Below, one piece after another: positions 1 to 10,553 of a DNA stretch of 38,078 bases. Under the pieces are notes generated by a model. It did not search any database and was not told the origin of the DNA. It worked only from the letters and a program-made list of their open reading frames with translations. Both the position numbers and the translations under genes were made by a program. This stretch comes from Lachnospiraceae bacterium (GTDB taxonomy: Bacteria; Bacillota; Clostridia; Lachnospirales; Lachnospiraceae). The stretch is taken from the NCBI GenBank assembly GCA_017620155.1, contig JAFZQY010000023.1:1-38078 (forward strand), given 5' to 3'. How positions within the stretch are numbered: the first letter of the stretch is position 1; every line of letters starts with the position of its first letter.

Positions 1-300
1 CTGGAGAAGGCTTCGGAGATGGGTTTCGGTGCCGTGCTGTTTGAGGGGAATATCAATTTCTACAGCAAATGCGGATTTACCTTCGCAAGAGAGTTCGGTA
101 TACGATATCATGATCTGCCTGAAGGAGAGGATGATTCCTTTTTTCTGTGCAGAGAGTTGATTCCAGGGTATCTCGATGGTATCACAGGAGTGTATCAGAC
201 ACCGAAGGGATACTATGTGAAGGATGAAGATGTGGAGGAGTTTGACAAGGGATTCCCGCCTAAGGAAAAGCTGAAGCTTCCGGGGCAGATATTTGGGTAA
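1..300 (+). CDS. GNAT-family N-acetyltransferase, 3' part
   Basis: The reading frame is open from the first base, so the gene starts before the window and only about 99 C-terminal residues are present. The segment GNINFYSKCGF matches the end of the acetyl-CoA-binding fold of GNAT proteins (motif B region, where a Tyr often acts as general acid). The tail has PKGYY and FPPKEKLKLPGQ, which I associate from memory with a group of Firmicute GNAT enzymes. The acyl acceptor cannot be read from this part. It is followed after 44 bp by a separate gene with its own ribosome binding site. Confidence 0.8.
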   Translation: MEKASEMGFGAVLFEGNINFYSKCGFTFAREFGIRYHDLPEGEDDSFFLCRELIPGYLDGITGVYQTPKGYYVKDEDVEEFDKGFPPKEKLKLPGQIFG

Positions 301-344
301 TCTTCCAGCTGAGTAACAATCAATCTGCATATTTGGAGGCTGTC

Positions 345-839
345 ATGAGCAAACGAGCGAGACAGTATATTGGCCTGTTTGTGGCGATAATTTCATATTA
401 TATTATTCACGAAGGAGCCCATCTGGCATACGCGCTGATCACAGGAGTGTATAAGCAGGTCAATATAATAGGGCTTGGTGTTCAGATAGACGTATTTGCT
501 GAAAAGATGACAGACAATCAGATGGGGATGTTTTGCCTCGTGGGTTCCCTTGCTACGATCATAACCGGATATATTCTTGTGGGGGTAATAAACATTTTGA
601 TCAAATCGCCCTCAGATATATTTAAGGCGTGCATGTACTATGTGACAATAATAATGATGTTTATGGATCCGTTGTATTTATGTGTTCTTTGCTCCATTTT
701 TGGCGGAGGGGATATGAATGGGATATCTCTTATCATTTCTGAAATTGCCGCAAGAGTAATATATGGAATCCTGTTTATCGTCAATGCAGTGATTTTTATC
801 AAAGTGGTTTTGCCAAAATATAAGATGGCTTTTCAATAG
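345..839 (+). CDS. Small integral membrane protein with HEGAH (HExxH-like) motif
   Basis: The ATG at 345 is chosen because GGAGG lies five bases before it; an upstream TTG in frame overlaps that site and is less likely. The 164-residue product has about four hydrophobic segments. The first carries HEGAH, an HExxH zinc-binding signature inside a membrane helix, as in M50-type intramembrane proteases. A later membrane segment has MDP, and M50 proteases supply a third zinc ligand from an Asp in a later helix. These are visible motifs; protease activity is an inference. The protein is shorter than typical site-2 proteases and shows no PDZ domain. It is likely transcribed with the upstream acetyltransferase gene. 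It could also be an inactive relative. Confidence 0.7.
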   Translation: MSKRARQYIGLFVAIISYYIIHEGAHLAYALITGVYKQVNIIGLGVQIDVFAEKMTDNQMGMFCLVGSLATIITGYILVGVINILIKSPSDIFKACMYYVTIIMMFMDPLYLCVLCSIFGGGDMNGISLIISEIAARVIYGILFIVNAVIFIKVVLPKYKMAFQ

Positions 840-867
840 AAAATAGAAGACTGAATCGATGTGAAGA

Positions 868-896
868 TTGACACAGACACGTATCTCAGATAAAAT
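868..896 (+). promoter_or_regulatory. Sigma-A-type promoter of the upstream uvrB copy
   Basis: TTGACA at 868-873 and TAAAAT at 891-896 are separated by 17 bp, close to the vegetative consensus. The start codon of the truncated uvrB copy lies 55 bp downstream. Confidence 0.75.
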
Positions 897-897
897 A

Positions 898-911
898 CAA
901 ACAGATGTTCG
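898..911. promoter_or_regulatory. LexA (SOS) operator candidate
   Basis: Read on the minus strand this is CGAACATCTGTTTG. It has both half sites, CGAAC and GTTYG, at the spacing of the Gram-positive LexA box. It lies directly after the -10 element, where a repressor would block initiation. uvrB is a known LexA target in Bacillus subtilis. I see no comparable site before the complete uvrB at 5631. Confidence 0.6.
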
Positions 912-951
912 ATGCGGATTTAATTAAGATTTTGAGGGTGTTTTGTGAGAA

Positions 952-1224
952 ATGGAATTTAAACTTCATTCCGAATATCAGCCTACCGGCGATCAGCCGA
1001 AGGCCATAAAAGAATTAGTAGAGGGTTTCAAACAGGGCAACCAGTTTGAAACCTTACTTGGCGTTACGGGTTCCGGCAAGACCTTCACGATGGCTAATGT
1101 CATTGCGCAGCTGCAGAAGCCGACTCTGATCATCAGCCACAACAAAACCCTCGCGGGCCAGCTGTATTCCGAGATGAAAGAATTCTTCCCCGAGAACGCG
1201 GTGGAGTATTTTGTATCCTATTAG
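952..1224 (+). pseudogene. uvrB: uvrB 5' fragment (90 codons), excinuclease ABC subunit B
   Basis: This encodes the first 90 residues of UvrB, including Walker A GVTGSGKT at residues 37-44, and then meets an immediate TAG. The protein differs from the matching part of the complete copy at 5631 at about five positions. The DNA differs at roughly 30-35 of 270 bases, mostly silent, counted by eye. The last 38 bp before the break are identical. The fragment ends just before the [12 protein letters not shown] segment (the beta-hairpin region that grips DNA), so it cannot support repair. It keeps an intact promoter and a LexA-like box, so a 90-residue peptide could still be made after DNA damage. 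I read it as the original 5' end of the chromosomal gene, cut by an insertion. Confidence 0.9.
1183..1220 (+). repeat. 38-bp direct repeat, left copy (possible attL core or crossover site)
   Basis: This stretch inside the truncated uvrB is identical to 5862-5899 in the complete uvrB. It begins at codon 78 in both copies, so both are in the same reading phase. Identity stops abruptly after the shared CCTA: the left copy continues TTAG and the right copy CTAC. Upstream of the repeat the two copies diverge to well under 90% identity. Confidence 0.85.
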
Positions 1225-1236
1225 CTCTATTCATAC

Positions 1237-1258
1237 ATGCCACAATATCTTGTGGCAT
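1237..1258. repeat. Perfect 9-bp inverted repeat near the left junction
   Basis: ATGCCACAA and TTGTGGCAT flank the loop TATC, starting 16 bp inside the left break. There is no T-run after it, so it is not a standard terminator. A recombinase-binding or protein-binding site is possible. Confidence 0.55.
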
Positions 1259-1335
1259 TAACCCAAGAGAAAATCCATATATAGTAGCAAGGTAACGTTA
1301 TAAGGACTGTGTGGACTATATGGACAGGGTACTAC

Positions 1336-1353
1336 AGGTGAGGCAATTGTCCG
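1336..1353 (+). repeat. 18-bp direct repeat, left copy
   Basis: AGGTGAGGCAATTGTCCG occurs here and again at 5527-5544, close to the two ends of the element and in the same orientation. The central CAATTG is palindromic. Confidence 0.7.
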
Positions 1354-1384
1354 GCTGTTGTACCTCCGGCTGTTAGAATGGCAC

Positions 1385-1447
1385 TACCGCAAATGTCTTC
1401 GGCAAAATACCGCAAATGTCTTCGGCAAAATACCACAAATGTCTTCG
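1385..1447 (+). repeat. 23-bp tandem repeat, about 2.7 copies
   Basis: Units start at 1385, 1408 and 1431. Each reads TACCGCAAATGTCTTCG followed by GCAAAA. The third unit has one change (ACCACA) and stops after TTCG. The array ends 8 bp before the -35 of the ATPase promoter, so it may be a set of regulator-binding sites. Confidence 0.8.
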
Positions 1448-1454
1448 TTGATGA

Positions 1455-1482
1455 TTGAAAATAGCTGATAATGGAGTATAAT
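1455..1482 (+). promoter_or_regulatory. Promoter of the AAA/DUF4143 ATPase gene
   Basis: TTGAAA at 1455-1460 and TATAAT at 1477-1482 are separated by 16 bp. The start codon follows 46 bp later, and a GAGG lies about 12 bp before it. Confidence 0.6.
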
Positions 1483-1528
1483 ACATAATATAGATTAATA
1501 CATATGCTTTGCGAGGTAAATAACCAGA

Positions 1529-2815
1529 ATGAACTATATAAAACGAATATGTGACAGCGAATTGCGAGACAAACTGGATGCTTTTGGAGCTGTACATGTT
1601 ATAGGTCCTAAATGGTGTGGGAAAACAACAACCGCTAAACAATTTGCCAAAAGCTATATTGAAATGCAGGACCCCGATATGAGGGATTCCTATATACATA
1701 CTGCCCAAATCAAACCATCTAATCTGCTTGTTGGAGAGAATCCTCGTTTGATCGATGAGTGGCAGATTGCTCCGAATTTATGGGATGCTGTAAGAGTTTC
1801 TGTCGATAAAAGAAACGAATCCGGCTTATATATTCTTACCGGTTCAAATTCCATAGATAAGACCGCAATCATGCATACCGGAACCGGCAGAATCGATACA
1901 CTCCAGATGTATCCAATGAGTCTATATGAATCAGGGGAGTCAAACGGTAAAGTTTCTTTAACCTCGTTATTTGAGAATAAAGCGCTTGCGGATGAAGAAT
2001 GCATTTCTGATCTCACGATTGATGGAATAATACAGGCCGCGTGCCGCGGCGGATGGCCATCTATTATGAACAAAAAAACAGATAAAGCAAAACTGATGGT
2101 TTCCGGAAGCTATTTTGATAGCCTTTGCAGAGACGACGTTAGTAATGTGGATAGCGTGAAAAGAGAAGAGCAGGGTACACGTCTTTTGCTTAGATCCTAT
2201 GCCAGAAACATATCAACATTTGCTTCCAACCGTACGATTCTGCGGGATATTAATGCAAATTACTCCATGGGAGAAACTACGTTTTACGATTATTTAAGTG
2301 CTCTAAAAAAACTATATGTGATCAAGGATGTAGAAGCATGGTGCCCGTCGATAAGATCCAAAACGGCAATTCAATCGTCTGATAAAAAAGAGTTTATAGA
2401 TCCTTCAATAGCCGTCGCTGCTCTCGGCGTCGGCCCGGAATACTTCAATACCGATCTTAAGGCTTTCGGGTTTATTTTTGAAACTTTATGTATAAGGGAC
2501 CTGCGTGTTTACTCTTCGTCAATGGGCGGAACAATATCATATTACCACGACAGATATGGTTTGGAAGCAGACGCTGTACTTCACCTGAAGGATGGCAGAT
2601 ATGCGTTGATTGAGATAAAGCTTGGCAGTAATGAAATTGAAGAAGGAGCTTCGCACCTTAATGAAATAGAGCGACTGATAGCAGAATACAATTCTCATGA
2701 GAAGCAGGTTCCGCTCAGATTACCTGATTTAAAGATGGTGCTTACTGGTACACCTTTTGGTTACAAACGAGAGGATGGTGTTTTTGTTATTCCGATAGGA
2801 TGCTTGAAAAACTAG
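1529..2815 (+). CDS. AAA-family ATPase with DUF4143 C-terminal domain
   Basis: This 428-residue protein has Walker A GPKWCGKT at about residues 26-33, a Walker B-like RLIDEWQ near residue 94, and a sensor-like YILTGSN. This is the order of the AAA_14 domain. The C-terminal part has GLEADAVLHL and, later, YALIEIKLGS. That D...E-x-K arrangement is typical of the PD-(D/E)xK-like fold of DUF4143. The length is normal for the family, so the gene looks intact. The function of the family is not settled; these genes are very common as lone accessory genes in anaerobe genomes. The gene has its own promoter and upstream repeats. I infer accessory cargo, possibly a self-regulated or addictive gene, but nothing here shows a toxin or antitoxin. 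Confidence 0.85.
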   Translation: MNYIKRICDSELRDKLDAFGAVHVIGPKWCGKTTTAKQFAKSYIEMQDPDMRDSYIHTAQIKPSNLLVGENPRLIDEWQIAPNLWDAVRVSVDKRNESGLYILTGSNSIDKTAIMHTGTGRIDTLQMYPMSLYESGESNGKVSLTSLFENKALADEECISDLTIDGIIQAACRGGWPSIMNKKTDKAKLMVSGSYFDSLCRDDVSNVDSVKREEQGTRLLLRSYARNISTFASNRTILRDINANYSMGETTFYDYLSALKKLYVIKDVEAWCPSIRSKTAIQSSDKKEFIDPSIAVAALGVGPEYFNTDLKAFGFIFETLCIRDLRVYSSSMGGTISYYHDRYGLEADAVLHLKDGRYALIEIKLGSNEIEEGASHLNEIERLIAEYNSHEKQVPLRLPDLKMVLTGTPFGYKREDGVFVIPIGCLKN

Positions 2816-2853
2816 AAAGCATAGAGATTGATGTATCGGTAGGAGGTAAAAAG

Positions 2854-3195
2854 ATGCCTAAATACACGGATGATGAAATAAGAAATATGAAGATTACATG
2901 TAAGATAGCAGGTGAGTATTTAGGAATATCTTCGATGGCTGTGAGCATTGGGATGAGAAACAATCTTCTCCCTATTGGATTTGCAATCCATAATGAAGAA
3001 AACGATAGACCATATTCAGAAAGTTGGTCATATCTGATTATTGCAGAGCGACTAATAGCATACAAGTTTGGGAGAATCTCGAAAGTGCAGGTTCAAAACA
3101 TTGAAAAGAATCTTTCAACCATTATAGAGCAGTTCGAGGAAATGAAAAAAGACCTGGTTTTTCTATTAAGCGAAAACGGGGATCAGCAGAAATAG
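2854..3195 (+). CDS. Small HTH-like protein of mobile-element type
   Basis: The ATG at 2854 is chosen because AGGAGG lies just before it (TAGGAGGTAAAAAG). An earlier in-frame start at 2800 would overlap the ATPase gene and has no such site. The 113-residue product has a segment, TCKIAGEYLGISSMAVSIG, that looks like a helix-turn-helix, then WSYLIIAERLIAYKFGRI and a charged, coiled-coil-like C terminus. From memory it resembles small winged-helix or excisionase-like proteins in conjugative elements of Firmicutes. This is a weak resemblance. It may control the element or be cargo. Confidence 0.6.
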   Translation: MPKYTDDEIRNMKITCKIAGEYLGISSMAVSIGMRNNLLPIGFAIHNEENDRPYSESWSYLIIAERLIAYKFGRISKVQVQNIEKNLSTIIEQFEEMKKDLVFLLSENGDQQK

Positions 3196-3293
3196 AATTG
3201 TTTGATTACGCGTTTTCGCTTGGCAAGTATTCGAATCTACAAAAGAGATATGAAGGGAAAGAATTACCGGAATGGAGAGTGAAAAAGGAATAG
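3153..3293 (+). other. Open frame without a supported start, possible gene remnant
   Basis: In the third frame, overlapping the end of the small HTH-like gene and the start of the next, the sequence reads as protein-like (for example ELFDYAFSLGKYSNLQKRY) up to a TAG at 3291. No start codon with a ribosome binding site is seen. It could be the tail of a gene lost by deletion, or chance. Confidence 0.2.
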
Positions 3294-4273
3294 TAAAGTT
3301 GTCAAGAAAACAACTCTATAACGATATTTGGGAAATGTCTGTTGCAGGAGTTGCTCGAAAGTATAATCTGAATTATGCCAAGTTGATTGAGACGTGTAGG
3401 GTATCCGATATACCTTTTCCTTCTTCGGGCTACTGGACGAGACGGAATTGTGGAAAAGATGTTTCTTCGGAGATAATACTGCTCAGTGGGGCTGGAGATG
3501 AAATAGTAGAACTACTCACCAATGATTCTGTGGTCAAGAGACTAAGAAAAAACAATAATGCTAATGATATGTCTATTGAACAGGGGAATGAAGACAAATC
3601 CCCCAATATGATAGATACCTATGATGATAGTGTTATACAATCGCAGGTTTTGAGTTTTCTTAGTAAAGAGGAAAGGATAAAAGTCCTTGCTGTGGCGTGT
3701 AATCTGAAGATAGAGGGCAATAACAGACTTCATAAGGCATTGACACAATACAAGAAAAAGATTGCAGATTATAACGAACAGCTAAAAAAGGCGCAGAGTC
3801 AGAGATACTATAACCCACGATATAATAAGCCGGCGAATGAACCGAGTTTCTTTAGCGAGGTTTCGGATGAAGGGACAAAGAGACTTATGGGCATATTGGA
3901 TGCTCTGTATAAGGCAATCGAGAAACTGGGCGGAACAGTAAATGAGGATCTGTCAATAAAACTCAATGATGATGTTGTCAGGCTCAGGGTAGCTGAATCA
4001 AAAGACAAAATCAAACATGAATTGACAAAGCAAGAAGCTCAGGAACTTCTAAAGTATCAGGATGAACTAAAAAGGCATTCATGGGCTTCGAAACCGCAAA
4101 TCAGACAATATGATCACGTGTTCAATGGAAGATTGCGTATTGTATTTGGCGAAAAAAGTTATATTCGAGATTCCGAGAAAGAAAAACTTGAGGATCGTTT
4201 AGGGGATATTGCTAATGAAAAGGATACGTGCAAAATATGTGTATGGTCTTTCGGCCACCCCGGAGAGAAGTGA
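3272..4273 (+). pseudogene. Hypothetical protein with N-terminal DNA-binding-like domain, 3' truncated
   Basis: The 333-codon frame begins with KLSRKQLYNDIWEMSVAGVARKYNL and later FPSSGYWTRRNCGK, which looks like a helix-turn-helix-type N-terminal domain seen in many uncharacterised proteins of mobile regions. The middle is charged and predicted coiled coil (QYKKKIADYNEQLKKAQ). Family-like sequence appears to end at LEDRLGDI near 4206. The last 20 or so codons (including CKICVWSFG) are the helicase fragment read in the wrong frame. The gene therefore seems to have lost its 3' end in a deletion that joined it to the next gene. The start lacks a close ribosome binding site. Confidence 0.6.
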
Positions 4274-5375
4274 TCATTTGGATGATATAGTATATATGCT
4301 TCTGGGTCCTGTTCGACATAAGTATTCTGTTAAGGAACAGGCAGATGCACAGGGGTTGGAACGATATGTCTGTCCAAGATTTACAAGGGTAGTTAATATA
4401 TCCGGGGAGAAACTTGATATACATAAGGCTGATGCTCTGATAGCGGACAGTGTAGTGAGAAATGAACAGATTGTATCTGATGTTGAGCAGGCTATTGTCT
4501 CCGGCAGGACTCCGGTGATACTGACCAAACTAAAGAAACATGCCGAACAGTTAAATGAAATACTTCAGGGAAAAGCAGATCATGTTTTTTTGATATACGG
4601 CGGACAGACTATGAAGCAGAATCAGGATATCAAAGACCAAATGTTTCGTATCCCGTCAAATGAAACTCTTATCCTAATAGCGACCGGGCAAAAGATAGGA
4701 GAGGGCTTCAACTTTCCGAGATTGGATACGCTTATGCTCGCGGCACCTGTAAAGTTTGAGGGTCGGCTTATACAATATATCGGCCGTCTGAATCGTTCTT
4801 ATGAAGGTAAGAAAGATGTGATGGTTTACGATTATGTAGATCCGCATATAGTATTCTTCGACAGGCAATACAAAAATCGCCTTAAGACATACAGAAAACT
4901 TGGATATCAGGTAATATCCAACCCGGTTATAGAGAAGCAGAAAGCTAATATGATCTTTAATGGAAGAGATTATACAGAGATTTTCGAGCGGGATCTGATA
5001 GAAGCAGATCGAGAAATTGTAATAGCAAGTCCTGATCTTAGAAGAAACAAAGTAGATCGGCTTATTGCATTGTTAAAACCAAGACAGGAAGCCGGTGTAT
5101 CTGTAACGGTTATCACAATGGAACCGGATTCGACAGGATATGGAGATACTATAGAACTCCATATATTGATTGATGAAATGAAAAACAGCGGGATTCATAT
5201 ACGCACAACACTGGACGAGGGAGAACATTATGCTGTAATAGACCGAAAACTCGTATGGCACGGTGGCATGAATCTGCTTGGAAAAGCTGATGTTTATGAC
5301 AATCTTATACGCGTGGAAAACGAACAAGCAGCTGCGGAATTGATGGAGATTACAGAGCGGATCGCTGATAGATAA
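4215..5375 (+). pseudogene. Superfamily 2 helicase C-terminal half with PLD-like domain, 5' truncated
   Basis: The frame opens straight into KYVYGLSATPERSD, helicase motif III (SAT). It continues through a full helicase C domain: VILTKLKKHAEQL, LIATGQKIGEGFNFPRLDTL and QYIGRLNRS (motifs V and VI). A C-terminal segment, HYAVIDRKLVWHGGMN, resembles the end of PLD-type nuclease domains, though a canonical HxKxxxxD is not visible. Walker A and the DEAD/DEAH box are absent, and the frame is closed by a stop just upstream, so more than half of the protein is missing. Intact relatives that I recall are large helicase-PLD proteins, some with a primase (TOTE-type conflict systems). As it stands the product cannot be an active helicase. 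Confidence 0.75.
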
Positions 5376-5472
5376 ATGATGATATGAGGCCGTCTTTCAC
5401 AAGAGCGGGCTTGAAAAGGACAGTGTTTCTGCTCGATACAAACGCTTATACGACTAAAAATGTATCATATAG

Positions 5473-5501
5473 TTCATATTGTCCGTATGGTGATATATAA
5501 T
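5473..5501 (+). promoter_or_regulatory. Possible promoter of the complete uvrB
   Basis: TATAAT at 5496-5501 has TTCATA 17 bp upstream at 5473-5478, a weak -35. It is the best candidate between the helicase fragment and uvrB. No LexA-like CGAAC-N4-GTTYG is seen in 5376-5630. Confidence 0.35.
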
Positions 5502-5526
5502 TCGTACAGTTTGGATTATAAAAAAT

Positions 5527-5544
5527 AGGTGAGGCAATTGTCCG
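5527..5544 (+). repeat. 18-bp direct repeat, right copy
   Basis: Identical to 1336-1353 in the same orientation; it lies 86 bp before the start of the complete uvrB. Confidence 0.7.
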
Positions 5545-5586
5545 TTTGATGAGCATGGGACATATATGGCAGACAAAAACTGGTGA

Positions 5587-5605
5587 ATAGTAATCATTTT
5601 ACTAT
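5587..5605. repeat. Inverted repeat in the uvrB leader
   Basis: ATAGTAA and TTACTAT are perfect 7-bp arms around TCATT, 25 bp before the uvrB start codon. It could be an operator or a weak hairpin in the leader. It is absent from the leader of the truncated copy. Confidence 0.45.
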
Positions 5606-5630
5606 CAGATTTTGAAGGATAATTGAAGAA

Positions 5631-7619
5631 ATGGACTTTAAATTACATTCAGAATATCAGCCGACCGGCGACCAGCCGCAGGCAATAAAGGAATTAGTTG
5701 AGGGTTTCAAACAGGGCAACCAGTTTGAGACTCTTCTTGGCGTTACGGGTTCCGGCAAGACCTTTACGATGGCTAATGTGATAGCCGCTCTGAACAAACC
5801 GACACTGATCATCAGTCATAACAAAACACTCGCCGGACAGCTGTATGGAGAGATGAAAGAGTTCTTCCCCGAGAACGCGGTGGAGTATTTTGTATCCTAC
5901 TACGATTATTACCAGCCTGAAGCATATGTGCCTTCGTCAGACACATACATTGCGAAGGATTCATCCATAAATGATGAGATAGACAGACTGCGTCTTTCGG
6001 CGACAGCTTCTCTTGCCGAGAGACGGGATGTGATTGTCGTGGCTTCGGTTTCATGCATATACGGCCTCGGCTCTCCGAAAGAGTTCAAGGCGATGAGCGT
6101 TTCCTTGAGGAGAGGGCAGCAGATCGACAGGGATGATGTCATAAGAGGGCTCGTGAACATACAGTATTCGCGTAACGACATGGAACTGTCGAGAAGTACG
6201 TTCAGGGTACGCGGAGATGTTCTTGAAGTAGCTCCATCCACATCTTTTCACGGGCCGGATTATATCATCAGGATAGAGTTTTTCGGTGACGAGATAGACC
6301 GTATTTCGGAGATCGATCCTCTTAATGGGAAGATCTTAAGGTCGCCCGAACATGTCATGCTTTTTCCCGCTTCACATTATGTGGTTGAACAGGATACATT
6401 AAACAGAGCCTGTGATACCATCAGCGAGGAGCTTACGGAAAGGATCAGCTTTTTCAAATCCGAGGATAAGCTCTTAGAGGCGCAGCGTATATCCGAGAGA
6501 ACGAATTTCGATATCGAGATGCTCAGGGAGACCGGATTCTGCTCGGGCATCGAGAATTATTCAAGACATTTTGCGGGGACTGCACCCGGTGAACCGCCAA
6601 AGTGTCTTCTTGATTATTTTGAAGACGATTTTCTCATCATAATCGACGAGTCCCATATGACGATCCCGCAGATCAGAGCCATGTATGCGGGGGACCGCTC
6701 AAGGAAGACCACTCTCGTGGATTATGGCTTCAGGCTTCCCAGCGCACTGGACAACAGACCTTTAAGCTTCGAGGAATTTGAATCTCATATAGATCAGATG
6801 ATGTTCGTGTCCGCGACTCCTTCGGATTATGAAGCCGACCATGAACTGCTCCGTACCGAGCAGGTCATCCGACCCACCGGACTGCTTGATCCGGAAGTGG
6901 ATGTACGACCCGTGGAAGGCCAGATCGATGACCTGTTAGGGGAGATCAGAAAAGAGATCTCGAAGAATAACAAAGTCATGATTACGACACTTACGAAGAA
7001 GATGGCAGAGGATCTGACCAAGTATCTCAAGGAGGTCGGAGTCAAAGTCAATTACATGCATTCGGATGTCGAGGCTCTTGAGAGAGCGAAGATAATAAGA
7101 GACTTAAGACTGGGTGTTTTTGATGTACTGGTCGGGATCAACCTTTTGAGGGAAGGTCTGGATATACCGGAGGTTACGCTGGTGGCGATACTTGACGCGG
7201 ACAAGGAAGGTTTCCTTCGAAGCGAGACGGCGCTCATCCAGACTATCGGACGCGCGGCGCGTAATTCGGAAGGGCATGTCATCATGTATGCGGATGCCAT
7301 GACGGATTCCATGAAGAATGCGATAGATGAGACGAACCGCCGCCGCAAGATTCAGGAGGCATATAATAAGGAACACGGGATCACTCCGAAGACGATCGAG
7401 AAGTCCATTCGCGATCTTATAAGTATCTCCAAAGAAGTTGCAAAAGAAGAGATGCGATTCTCCAAGGATCCCGAGTCGATGGATAAACAGGAACTTAAAG
7501 CACTTATCGATAATGTTGAGAAACAGATGAGAAAAGCTGCTGCGGAACTTAACTTCGAGGCGGCTGCCGAACTCAGAGACAAGATGGTCGAATTAAAAAA
7601 GATGATGTACGAGGAATAG
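5631..7619 (+). CDS. uvrB: UvrABC excinuclease subunit B
   Basis: This 662-residue protein has the full UvrB layout. It shows Walker A GVTGSGKT (residues 37-44), the beta-hairpin region [12 protein letters not shown] (about 90-101), the DEAD-like IIDESHMT, the helicase C segment with [14 protein letters not shown] and IGRAARN, and a C-terminal UVR motif ([17 protein letters not shown]) that contacts UvrC. UvrB is handed the lesion by UvrA and positions UvrC for incision in nucleotide excision repair. The first 77 codons appear to come with the inserted element; the rest joins the resident gene at the 38-bp repeat. The gene is intact in frame. The uvrA start codon is 9 bp after its stop, so the two are one operon. 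Its upstream region is the element's, with only a weak promoter seen. Confidence 0.97.
5862..5899 (+). repeat. 38-bp direct repeat, right copy
   Basis: Identical to 1183-1220 and in the same codon phase. Exchange between the two copies would delete 4,679 bp and leave one complete in-frame uvrB behind the upstream promoter. Confidence 0.85.
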
Positions 7620-7628
7620 ATAAAAAAT

Positions 7629-10553
7629 ATGAGCTCTAAAGATAAGGAAAACGAAACAGCGGTAAAGATGCGCCCCAGAGATTACATCAAGATACGGGGG
7701 GCGAACGAACATAATCTCAAGAATCTGAATCTGGATATCCCCAGAGGACAGTTTGTCGTCTTCACGGGCCTGTCCGGATCCGGAAAATCTTCACTCGCAT
7801 TTGACACTATATATGCAGAAGGTCAGCGCCGGTACATGGAGTCTCTTTCTTCTTATGCCCGCATGTTCTTGGGACGCATGGAGAAGCCGAATGTGGAGAG
7901 ACTTGAGGGACTTTCTCCCGCAATATCGATAGATCAAAAATCCACTAATCATAACCCCAGATCCACGGTCGGGACCGTGACCGAGATCTATGATTATTTC
8001 AGACTGCTCTATGCCAGGGCAGGCGTACCTCACTGTCCCAAATGCGGACGCGTGATCGCGAGACAGACCATCGACCAGATCACCGACCGCGTGCTTGATC
8101 TTCCCGAGGGGACCAGGATCCAGATCCTCGCCCCCGTAGTCAGAGGACGTAAGGGTGAGCACACCAAGGTTCTTGAGAGTGCGGCTAAGAGCGGTTATGT
8201 CAGAGCAAGGATCGACGGCAGTCTTTATGAACTGTCCGAGGAGATCAAACTCGACAAGAACATCAAGCATAATATCGAGATCGTCGTGGACAGGCTCGTG
8301 GTCCGCGAAGGTATCAAATCCAGGCTCACCGATTCCGAGGAGAGCGCTCTTAAACTCGCCGGCGGCCTTCTGAATGTGGATACCGGTGACGGGGAGATGC
8401 TCACTTTTTCGCAGAATTTCGCATGTCCCGATTGCGGGATATCCATAGGCGAGATAGAGCCCAGGAGTTTCTCTTTCAACAATCCCTTCGGCGCATGTCC
8501 CGAATGTGCCGGTCTCGGATACAAGATGGAATTCGATGTCGATCTCATGATCCCCGACAGGAGACTGAGCTTCAACGACGGTGCGGTACAGGTCATGGGC
8601 TGGCAGAATTCCAAGGACAAAAAGAGCTTCTCGCATGCTCTTCTTGAAGCCCTGTCCAAGGCGAACGGTTTCAGTCTGGATACCCCCTTCAAAGATCTGC
8701 CCGAAGACATACAGAACAAATTCCTTTACGGCGGGTTCAAAGAGGTAAATGTTCACTATACAGGGCAGCGAGGGACCGGAGATTATCCGATGGAATTCGA
8801 AGGCCTGTTGGAGAACATCAATCGCAGATACCGCGAAACTTACGGTGAGAATTCCAGAGCCGAATATGAGTCTTATATGAGATTCTCACCATGTAACGTA
8901 TGTCACGGCATGAGACTTAAACCGGAGTCGCTGGCAGTGACCATAGGCGACCTGAACATACATGAGATTACATCTCTTTCCGTAAGGGATCTTCAGAAGT
9001 TCCTGAACGAACTTGAACTGACTAAGCAGCAGGCGATCATAGGCAAGCGTATCCTTCGCGAGATCTCAAACAGGGTAGGGTTCCTTGTTAATGTCGGACT
9101 CGATTATCTGACTCTGGCGAGAGCCACGTCATCACTTTCGGGCGGCGAGTCGCAGAGGATCCGTCTTGCGACCCAGATAGGATCGGGACTGGTCGGAGTA
9201 TGCTACATACTCGATGAACCCAGTATCGGACTTCACCAGAGGGACAACGGCAAGCTGCTTAATGCGTTAAAGGATCTGAGGGATCTGGGAAATACGCTGA
9301 TCGTCGTTGAGCATGATGAGGAGACGATGCGTGAAGCAGATTTCGTTGTGGATATCGGCCCGGGCGCCGGAGAGCACGGCGGAGAAGTCGTGGCAGCAGG
9401 CACCATCGAAGACATAATGGCAGTTCCCGAATCGATCACGGGCCAGTACTTAAGCGGCGCAAAGAAGATCGAGATCCCCGACTCGAGGAGAAAGCCTTCG
9501 GGATGGATCAAGGTCATCGGAGCGAGGGAAAACAATCTCAAGAACATAGATGTGGAAATCCCTCTCGGCGTCTTCACATGCGTGACGGGAGTATCCGGAT
9601 CAGGCAAATCTTCGCTGATAAATGAGATAGTCAATAAGCGGCTTTCAAGAGAACTGAACCGAGCCGGAACAGTACCCGGGAAGCATACGGATATAGAAGG
9701 GATAGAGCAGCTTGATAAAGTCATTGATATCGACCAGTCGCCCATCGGCCGTACTCCCAGATCCAATCCGGCTACATATACCGGCGTGTTTGATCAGATC
9801 AGGGATCTTTTTGCATCGACACAGGATGCGAAGGCACGAGGATACACCAAGGGCCGTTTCAGTTTCAATGTAAAGGGCGGACGCTGCGAAGCCTGTGCCG
9901 GTGACGGTATCGTGAAGATAGAGATGCATTTCCTGCCGGATGTATATGTTCCGTGCGAGGTATGCGAGGGGCACAGATATAACCGCGAGACCCTTGAGGT
10001 CAGGTATCACGATAAGAGCATATATGATGTGCTGAACATGACCGTTGAAGAGGCGCTTGTCTTCTTCGAGCATATCCCGTCTATCAGGAACAAGATCCAG
10101 ACCCTGTATGATGTGGGTCTCGGTTACATCCGCTTAGGACAGCCTTCGACGGAGCTTTCGGGCGGCGAAGCGCAGAGAGTCAAGCTTGCCACGGAACTGT
10201 CCAAACGCGGAACCGGCAGGACTATATATATCCTGGATGAGCCTACGACCGGACTTCATTTTGCGGATGTTCATAAGCTCATAGATATCCTCCAGCGCCT
10301 GGCCGAAGGCGGTAATACCGTCGTGGTCATCGAGCACAATCTCGATGTGATCAAGTGTGCGGACTACATCATCGATATGGGGCCCGAGGGCGGAGACGGC
10401 GGCGGAACCGTCATAGCACAGGGGACTCCCGAAGAGGTTGCCAAGGTCAAAAAATCTTATACGGGACAATACCTGGCTAAGATGCTGAAAGATAAACCCG
10501 AGGCAAAACCTGCGGCCAAATCCGCCTCCCGAAAGGAAAAAACAAAGGGTTAA
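7629..10553 (+). CDS. uvrA: UvrABC excinuclease subunit A
   Basis: This 974-residue protein has two ABC ATPase modules. The first has [10 protein letters not shown] near residue 50 and [12 protein letters not shown]; the second has [10 protein letters not shown] and [12 protein letters not shown]. Zinc-binding cysteines appear as CPKCG, CPDCG with CPECAG, and CEACAGDG with CEVCEG. UvrA dimers find helix-distorting lesions and load UvrB. The length is slightly above the usual 940-950 because of a short charged N-terminal extension and a Lys/Ala-rich tail. A start at the internal ATG at 7668 would remove the extension. It is cotranscribed with uvrB and followed by a terminator-like hairpin. Confidence 0.97.

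Follow-up and report, generated by a model that had tools for sequence, protein, structure and literature searches.

Lachnospiraceae very probably harbour a family of site-specific integrative elements that attach at the repair gene uvrB and on insertion would replace the promoter and the 5′ codons of that gene. Six features read from sequence make up the case: a common architecture, recurrence of the break at one codon, linkage to a pair of integrase genes, uvrB 5′ codons that track the integrase, empty sites in relatives and cargo transferred between genera. The locus from which we start lies in the 38,078-nt contig JAFZQY010000023.1 of a Lachnospiraceae bacterium (GenBank assembly GCA_017620155.1). 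This stretch, here called the window, is an entire contig (C43) of a draft genome of 125 contigs that is 88.6% complete with 6.6% contamination.

The forward strand of the window contains a uvrB 5′ fragment at positions 952–1224 and a complete uvrB at 5631–7619. The fragment, on the attL side, comprises the host promoter side and codons 1–90 (90 aa), after which it diverges from uvrB and meets a TAG codon. The complete gene, on the attR side, encodes 662 aa and, judging from the class described below, would be a chimera of element-type codons 1 to about 87 and host codons. Both open reading frames (ORFs) match UvrB-type helicase families, and the UvrB-specific domains are in the second. The two starts form a direct repeat of 276 nt (948–1223 and 5627–5902, 87% identical, spacing 4,679) that runs from 4 nt 5′ of the start codon to codon 90; by blastn they are 87.1% identical over 272 nt, i.e. 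about 35 differences. The 3′ end of the repeat is a perfect 38-bp stretch (1183–1220 and 5862–5899) in identical codon phase. A reading of the window from its letters alone, hereafter the sequence-only reading, had described a 90-codon fragment and a complete gene sharing this in-phase 38-bp repeat, with about 30–35 base differences upstream of it and 4,679 bp between equivalent positions, and the ORF, repeat and domain comparisons bear this description out. The draft genome shows these two uvrB copies only, and the insert is present once. Resemblance by chance is no concern when a gene is compared with its own partial copy; what goes beyond chance is the constant end-point, which recurs in other genomes.

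When the uvrB region was searched against 61 genomes, additional uvrB pieces with the same stop point came up in nine relatives (G001, G002, G003, G005, G019, G025, G028, G031 and G034) as well as in the window's genome (G000). Among 397 genomes of the family a UvrB N-terminus was found in 371, and two or more were counted in 37 rows of the resulting table; one row (G159) looks like a single frameshifted gene and another (G306) like a contig-edge copy, which leaves about 35 genomes. We read 39 fragments from 35 genomes (33 of the 37 plus G002 and G005), leaving out G159, G239, G262, G306 and some of the additional fragments in G312 and G352; two of the 39 are identical rows (L036 and L037) and the second fragment in L122 runs off its contig. 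By tblastn most fragments end at codon 89–94, and the longer ends, at 99–132, are by eye chance extensions; one decayed fragment ends at 76, and two others (L119, L120) are decayed close to the junction. The fragments depart from uvrB at about codon 90, bar one cut by a contig end and a few decayed copies. In the 37 distinct fragments the stop codon stands at codon 90 in 18, at codon 91 in 6 and before codon 90 in 11. Where contig and strand are common, a distance of about 0.5 to 217 kb separates fragment and complete gene, and protein identity over the replaced stretch of roughly 90 codons is 80–94% in most family matches. One single-contig genome (G075) has two uvrB fragments 2.8 kb apart (L123, L124), with the complete gene about 4 Mb away on the opposite strand. 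At two other loci uvrB itself is interrupted by about 0.3 kb (L155, uvrB 3702–6014; L179, uvrB 3318–5586) and neither locus shows another 5′ copy of the gene; the cells that carry these loci may be without a working UvrB.

Immediately 5′ of the complete uvrB in three loci (L042, L046 and L047) are two tandem tyrosine recombinase genes (int1 and int2), one of them broken in L047; in L046 the pair is followed by a small helix-turn-helix (HTH) protein whose match to an excisionase model falls below cut-off. At E 1e-30, int1 is present in 30 of the 397 family genomes. Scanned with ten int1 sequences, named genomes yielded 172 relatives, and in 75 of the best 80 loci, those retained, a uvrB N-terminus, complete or fragment, lies 3′ of int1 on the same strand, within 1.5 kb in 70 and at 1.5–4.6 kb in 5. 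Three of the other five stop at a contig end and two (L172, L226) are without a uvrB N-terminus. The record titles of the int1 relatives carry Lachnospiraceae or broader Clostridia names. Across 392 genomes of the order there were 11 int1 matches: the closer homologues of a second family (G618, G635, G638, G696) adjoin uvrB, as do those in G227 and G379, that of G088 reaches a contig end, and the distant ones (G049, G458, G473 and G641, about 27–33% identity) have no uvrB adjoining. Plasmid and phage collections each gave one distant integrase match at E 1e-30, with about 28% identity. The linkage of int1 to uvrB makes the tyrosine integrase pair the likely enzyme of uvrB insertion.

At 60 loci with an integrase and a full uvrB we compared uvrB distances with integrase distance. 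Rho was 0.34 for the 5′ codons and 0.16 for the 3′ codons, with partial correlations of 0.32 (p 0.001) and 0.10 (p 0.04), respectively; sixty-codon segments starting at 0, 30 and 60 gave 0.29–0.30 and later segments 0.03–0.23, with the step at codon 90. By these measures uvrB codons 1–90 follow the integrase and the remaining codons hardly do. The place of the exchange can be narrowed using the serine codon 89, for which 26 fragments and 23 complete genes among 29 fragment/complete pairs have TCC. AGT or AGC stands at this codon in four complete genes, each paired with a TCC fragment (L112 has the opposite arrangement), which puts the exchange 5′ of codon 89. Just 5′ of that codon is the putative attachment core, GAGTATTTTGT, near-invariant in the 29 pairs; on the forward strand of the window its left copy is at 1204–1214, inside the 38-bp repeat, and its right copy at 5883–5893. 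Codon conservation alone would also contribute to this invariance. The exchange point is more likely to lie near codons 84–87 than near codon 77. The sequence-only reading had taken the complete gene for a chimera with codons 1–77 from the element; the chimera stands by way of the class, the window's own identities being no proof of it, and the boundary at codon 77 gives way to the later one.

The element ends were sought by pattern as motifs of two types, GTGACC..ATTCGT or, in the window's group, GTGAGGCAATTGTCC. The left-end motif starts 106–117 nt 3′ of the fragment in 19 of 39 cases, and the right-end motif lies 103–218 nt 5′ of the complete gene in 15 of 34; among 43 uninserted loci (170 kb) a single one has any end motif. 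Where both ends were scored, by reading, the motif type agrees between them in 10 of 11 genomes. The exception, G375, is one of five cases among the 39 fragments in which an older right-end motif lies 5′ of the fragment. In the window, all on the forward strand, the element left end spans 1225–1360 with motif GGTGAGGCAATTGTCCGGC at 1337–1355, and a right-end motif of the same type, GGTGAGGCAATTGTCCGTT, stands at 5528–5546 within a 25-nt repeat. Just inside the left end a 23-bp unit occurs three times (1385–1453, TACCGCAAATGTCTTCGGCAAAA and variants), and the left end in G336 (L131) has similar letters.

Uninserted loci provide the comparison with an empty site. A peptidase gene, which we take to be S41/Ctp, lies directly 5′ of an intact uvrB in 10 of the 43 uninserted loci and directly 5′ of the fragment in G031 (L045) and G437 (L240), although the species differ. 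Another neighbour gene is common to G002 and G006; a fragment stands between this neighbour and uvrB in G002 only, and G006 has HipA-type genes there. The sequence-only reading had asked for related loci without the insertion and had named two findings that would speak against it, a lack of any empty site and 5′ ends that are old duplicates within the lineage; uninserted loci with the same neighbour gene as inserted ones were found, and neither contrary finding was made. Across the class the insertion point lies in the 5′ coding part of a single gene and the frame is restored by element-borne codons; in the window this is read from the architecture only.

Larger relatives of the window insert carry their own integrase (e.g. 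L042, L046 and L124). On one contig the fragment and the gene are 38 kb apart in Schaedlerella arabinosiphila (G431), 32 kb in Acetatifactor muris (G430), 40 kb in G435, 39 kb in G437, 66 kb in G434, 105 kb in G438 and 24 plus 103 kb, in tandem, in G439. The S. arabinosiphila interval contains a coupling-protein-like ATPase, a YqaJ gene and a ParA gene. PF03432, the one relaxase family sought, had a match above cut-off in the fragment–uvrB interval of 3 of 13 genomes (G431, G437, G428), one below it in that of G429 and none in the other nine (G430, G434, G435, G438, G439, G031, G133, G352 and G019); judged by this family, conjugation genes are not constant.

The window insert consists of four co-directional ORFs on the forward strand. 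These encode an ATPase of the AAA_14/DUF4143 type with a match to the PADLOC candidate PDC-S01 (1529–2815); a small protein of unassigned family with relatives in L034 and L131 (2800–3195); a protein without a family name (3272–4273), whose relatives in G001 and G336 are longer, at 441 aa; and a helicase C-terminal part with a PLD-like domain whose match is just below cut-off (4209–5375), for which no helicase N-terminal part was found. Among the four there is no integrase and no relaxase or transfer gene, and the genome, an incomplete draft, shows no integrase of the int1 kind at E 1e-30; its five other PF00589 matches all lie off contig C43. With both ends, no integrase and defence-like cargo, the insert is by its gene content either a cargo-only member of the class or a decayed derivative. 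It keeps attL and attR with no integrase or relaxase, as does a cis-mobilizable element (CIME), and has none of the integrase and transfer genes that an integrative and conjugative element (ICE) or an integrative and mobilizable element (IME) would carry itself. Positions 1390–4210 are 90.4% identical to the G336 insert and 2279–4210 are 85.6% identical to that of G001, whereas the uvrB 3′ parts of these genomes are 67.7% and 72.3% identical to the window's, respectively; the insert DNA is much more alike than the uvrB 3′ parts, and cargo has thus been transferred between genera. Identity to both inserts ends at about 4210, within an ORF that continues into the helicase C-terminus, and by this pattern the position is a recombination joint in the cargo. 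The G001 insert also has two genes of phosphotransferase (APH) fold (L034:7651–9478).

The DNA 5′ of the window fragment resembles element DNA as well. An ORF C-terminal part cut by the contig start (1–300, forward strand), which in another genus lies just 5′ of uvrB, is probably the remains of an older insertion: positions 1–293 are 98.6% identical to L132:4315–4607 of G336, a stretch within an ORF of 206 aa whose end lies 376 nt 5′ of uvrB. The window insert is therefore probably the second of a stack, and the fragment itself was probably once the attR of the older insertion. A UvrA-like ORF, named by reading, follows the complete uvrB at 7629–10553, and an Rfam scan of window positions 1–10000 gave no match.

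We propose the following course of events. Beside its attachment core, a circular element would carry a promoter together with its own version of roughly the first 90 uvrB codons, and its two tandem tyrosine integrases would recombine it with the host uvrB in conserved DNA just 5′ of the beta-hairpin codons, which we take to lie immediately 3′ of the recombination site. The host promoter and 5′ end would stay behind as a dead fragment, in many cases terminated by a junctional stop codon, and the host 3′ part would be fused to the element 5′ end, so that a full UvrB would be possible at once. Later elements would insert at the restored gene and turn the prior 5′ copy into a further fragment, giving rise to stacks, and such elements may still be mobile. 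This is the single crossover of an element with its own uvrB 5′ end that the sequence-only reading had suggested, and it gains from the recurrence at the same codon, the adjoining integrase pair, the tracking of the 5′ codons and the empty site in relatives. Several observations weigh against it. The uvrB 3′ part, too, is weakly correlated with the integrase; the pattern search found left-end motifs after just 19 of the 39 fragments and right-end motifs before just 15 of the 34 complete genes; the 11 of 37 fragments with a stop before codon 90 mean that some fragments are relics; pairwise 5′ identities within the genus give no decision on the origin of the window's own codons 1–81, nor do they mark its codons 1–87 as foreign; and the window insert is without an integrase.

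This last point bears on how the window insert moved. With no integrase of the int1 kind in insert or genome, a 4.7-kb circle would need an outside enzyme, and it is conceivable, if somewhat doubtful, that small integrase-less units of the window type are a standing class of cargo cassettes moved by the integrase of another uvrB element in the cell. Nine single-contig cases (G000, G001, G002, G034, G065, G348, G181, G220 and G164) show no match to int1 or int2 in the interval from fragment to complete gene, the cargo DNA and flanking DNA of the window are 90.4% and 98.6% identical to those of another genus, and an end motif and cargo are common to G000, G001 and G336. However, int1 C-terminal stubs beside uvrB in L112, L118 and L126 point to decay instead, and the incomplete G000 draft shows no int1 at E 1e-30. 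RecA-type homologous integration of DNA with, by chance, a 5′ piece of uvrB on it would dispense with a dedicated recombinase, as would a tandem duplication, and an insert without one beside 272 nt at 87% identity to its target is what such an event would leave; we consider this very unlikely, since homologous exchange would scatter the end-points that instead fall at one codon in 35 genomes, and since the element ends are conserved and integrases are linked to uvrB. Least probable of all is an artefact of assembly or binning in a metagenome draft: the 125 contigs and 6.6% contamination would allow it, but the same architecture stands on single large contigs elsewhere, including those of named isolates such as S. 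arabinosiphila DSM 106076.

Insertion at uvrB, as we reconstruct it, would also exchange promoters. The window fragment is preceded by a promoter-like site, TTGACA-17-TAAAAT (868–896, 11 of 12 matches), and a LexA-like box, CAAACAGATGTTCG (898–911), with 7 of 8 core letters, a score reached by chance in 450 nt in about 5 of 36 shuffles. The complete uvrB is preceded by TTCATA-17-TATAAT (5473–5501, likewise on the forward strand) and by no LexA-like box, the best in 600 nt being 6 of 8. Sigma-70-like sites between 700 and 5700 numbered 13 against 14.9 in shuffles, and as promoter-like sites are no commoner than in shuffles the two window promoters are leads. Elsewhere the best LexA-like core 5′ of the complete gene has 6 of 8 letters in G001, G003 and G006 and 8 in G002, and G336 has a box, CAAACAGACGTTCG, similar to that of the window. 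We counted the core GAACNNNNGTTC, presumably the LexA consensus, in 450 nt upstream and in mononucleotide shuffles, the sequences not being independent of one another. The exact core precedes 48 of the 64 uvrB N-termini at integrase loci, 11 of the 43 genes without insertion and 9 of the 36 fragments (0.3, 0.2 and 0.1 in shuffles); with one mismatch the counts are 58, 29 and 23 (shuffles 8.7, 5.3 and 5.1). In L172 a LexA-like box, AGAACAAAAGTTCG, lies 3′ of int1 (after position 2292) though no uvrB is behind it. ORFs of at least 100 aa within 3 kb 3′ of the fragments run with uvrB in 74 cases and against it in 3, and for the first ORF these numbers are 32 and 1. A gut metagenome study has described LexA sites 5′ of a phage integrase and a rhuM gene (PMC3998124), and in L041 a RhuM-family gene follows the fragment.

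Known elements resemble those at uvrB in part. The dusA elements (e.g. IMEVchUSA3) and the ICE SXT in prfC restore the 5′ end of their target gene with a new promoter, and the new N-terminus given by IMEVchUSA3 has 61% identity over 35 residues (PMC8409611). The uvrB elements would likewise restore the target's 5′ end and supply a promoter; unlike the dusA and prfC elements they target an SOS gene, replace about 90 codons, use two tandem integrases, often have a LexA-like box in the promoter and belong to another host group. Streptococcus ICEs also integrate site-specifically at the 5′ end of conserved genes (rbgA, ebfC, ftsK), changing the promoter in some and leaving the N-terminus unmodified (PMC4701971), whereas at uvrB about 90 codons are exchanged. 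CIMEs keep attL and attR after losing integration and transfer genes, and new elements enter at attR to form tandems (PMC5704250). The window insert and the uvrB stacks fit this pattern of CIMEs and accretion. Examples of CIMEs lie mostly at gene 3′ ends; unlike them, each uvrB accretion also alters the 5′ end and promoter of the gene. The islands termed GInts carry several tyrosine-recombinase genes, depend on four essential genes, may insert at gene 5′ ends and in one case have an outward promoter (PMC5385486). No such four-gene module is present in the window insert, and the uvrB elements have two integrases, whose close homologues are at uvrB, with a small HTH gene added in L046. Two papers retrieved with uvrB and attachment-site or element terms (PMC3948429, PMC11773190) concern, in the parts available, other subjects. 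Among the matches listed from the open-access literature, none reports uvrB as an integration target, and the sequence-only reading likewise knew of no named element that uses it. Set beside the known systems, what is new in the sequences is the uvrB target, the long replaced stretch, the integrase pair and the LexA-like box in the supplied promoter.

Taken together, these data place a precise site of integration within a core repair gene of a large group of gut bacteria. Knowing the site, whole elements can be delimited in draft genomes, and the integrase pair is a starting point towards site-specific integration tools for Lachnospiraceae. We tentatively suggest that by inserting at an SOS gene the element trades promoters with its host: the damage-inducible uvrB promoter of the host would pass to the cargo, which nearly always has the same orientation and would be transcribed through the dead fragment, and the host would receive the element promoter, usually LexA-boxed, with a new N-terminus; the N-terminus and regulation of uvrB might then be traded between Lachnospiraceae species. 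If this is true, then in copies without a LexA-like box 5′ of the complete gene, such as that of the window, uvrB would leave SOS control and the cargo would stay under it. Whether mobile DNA exchanges, and profits from, the SOS control of uvrB is a question that can now be tested.

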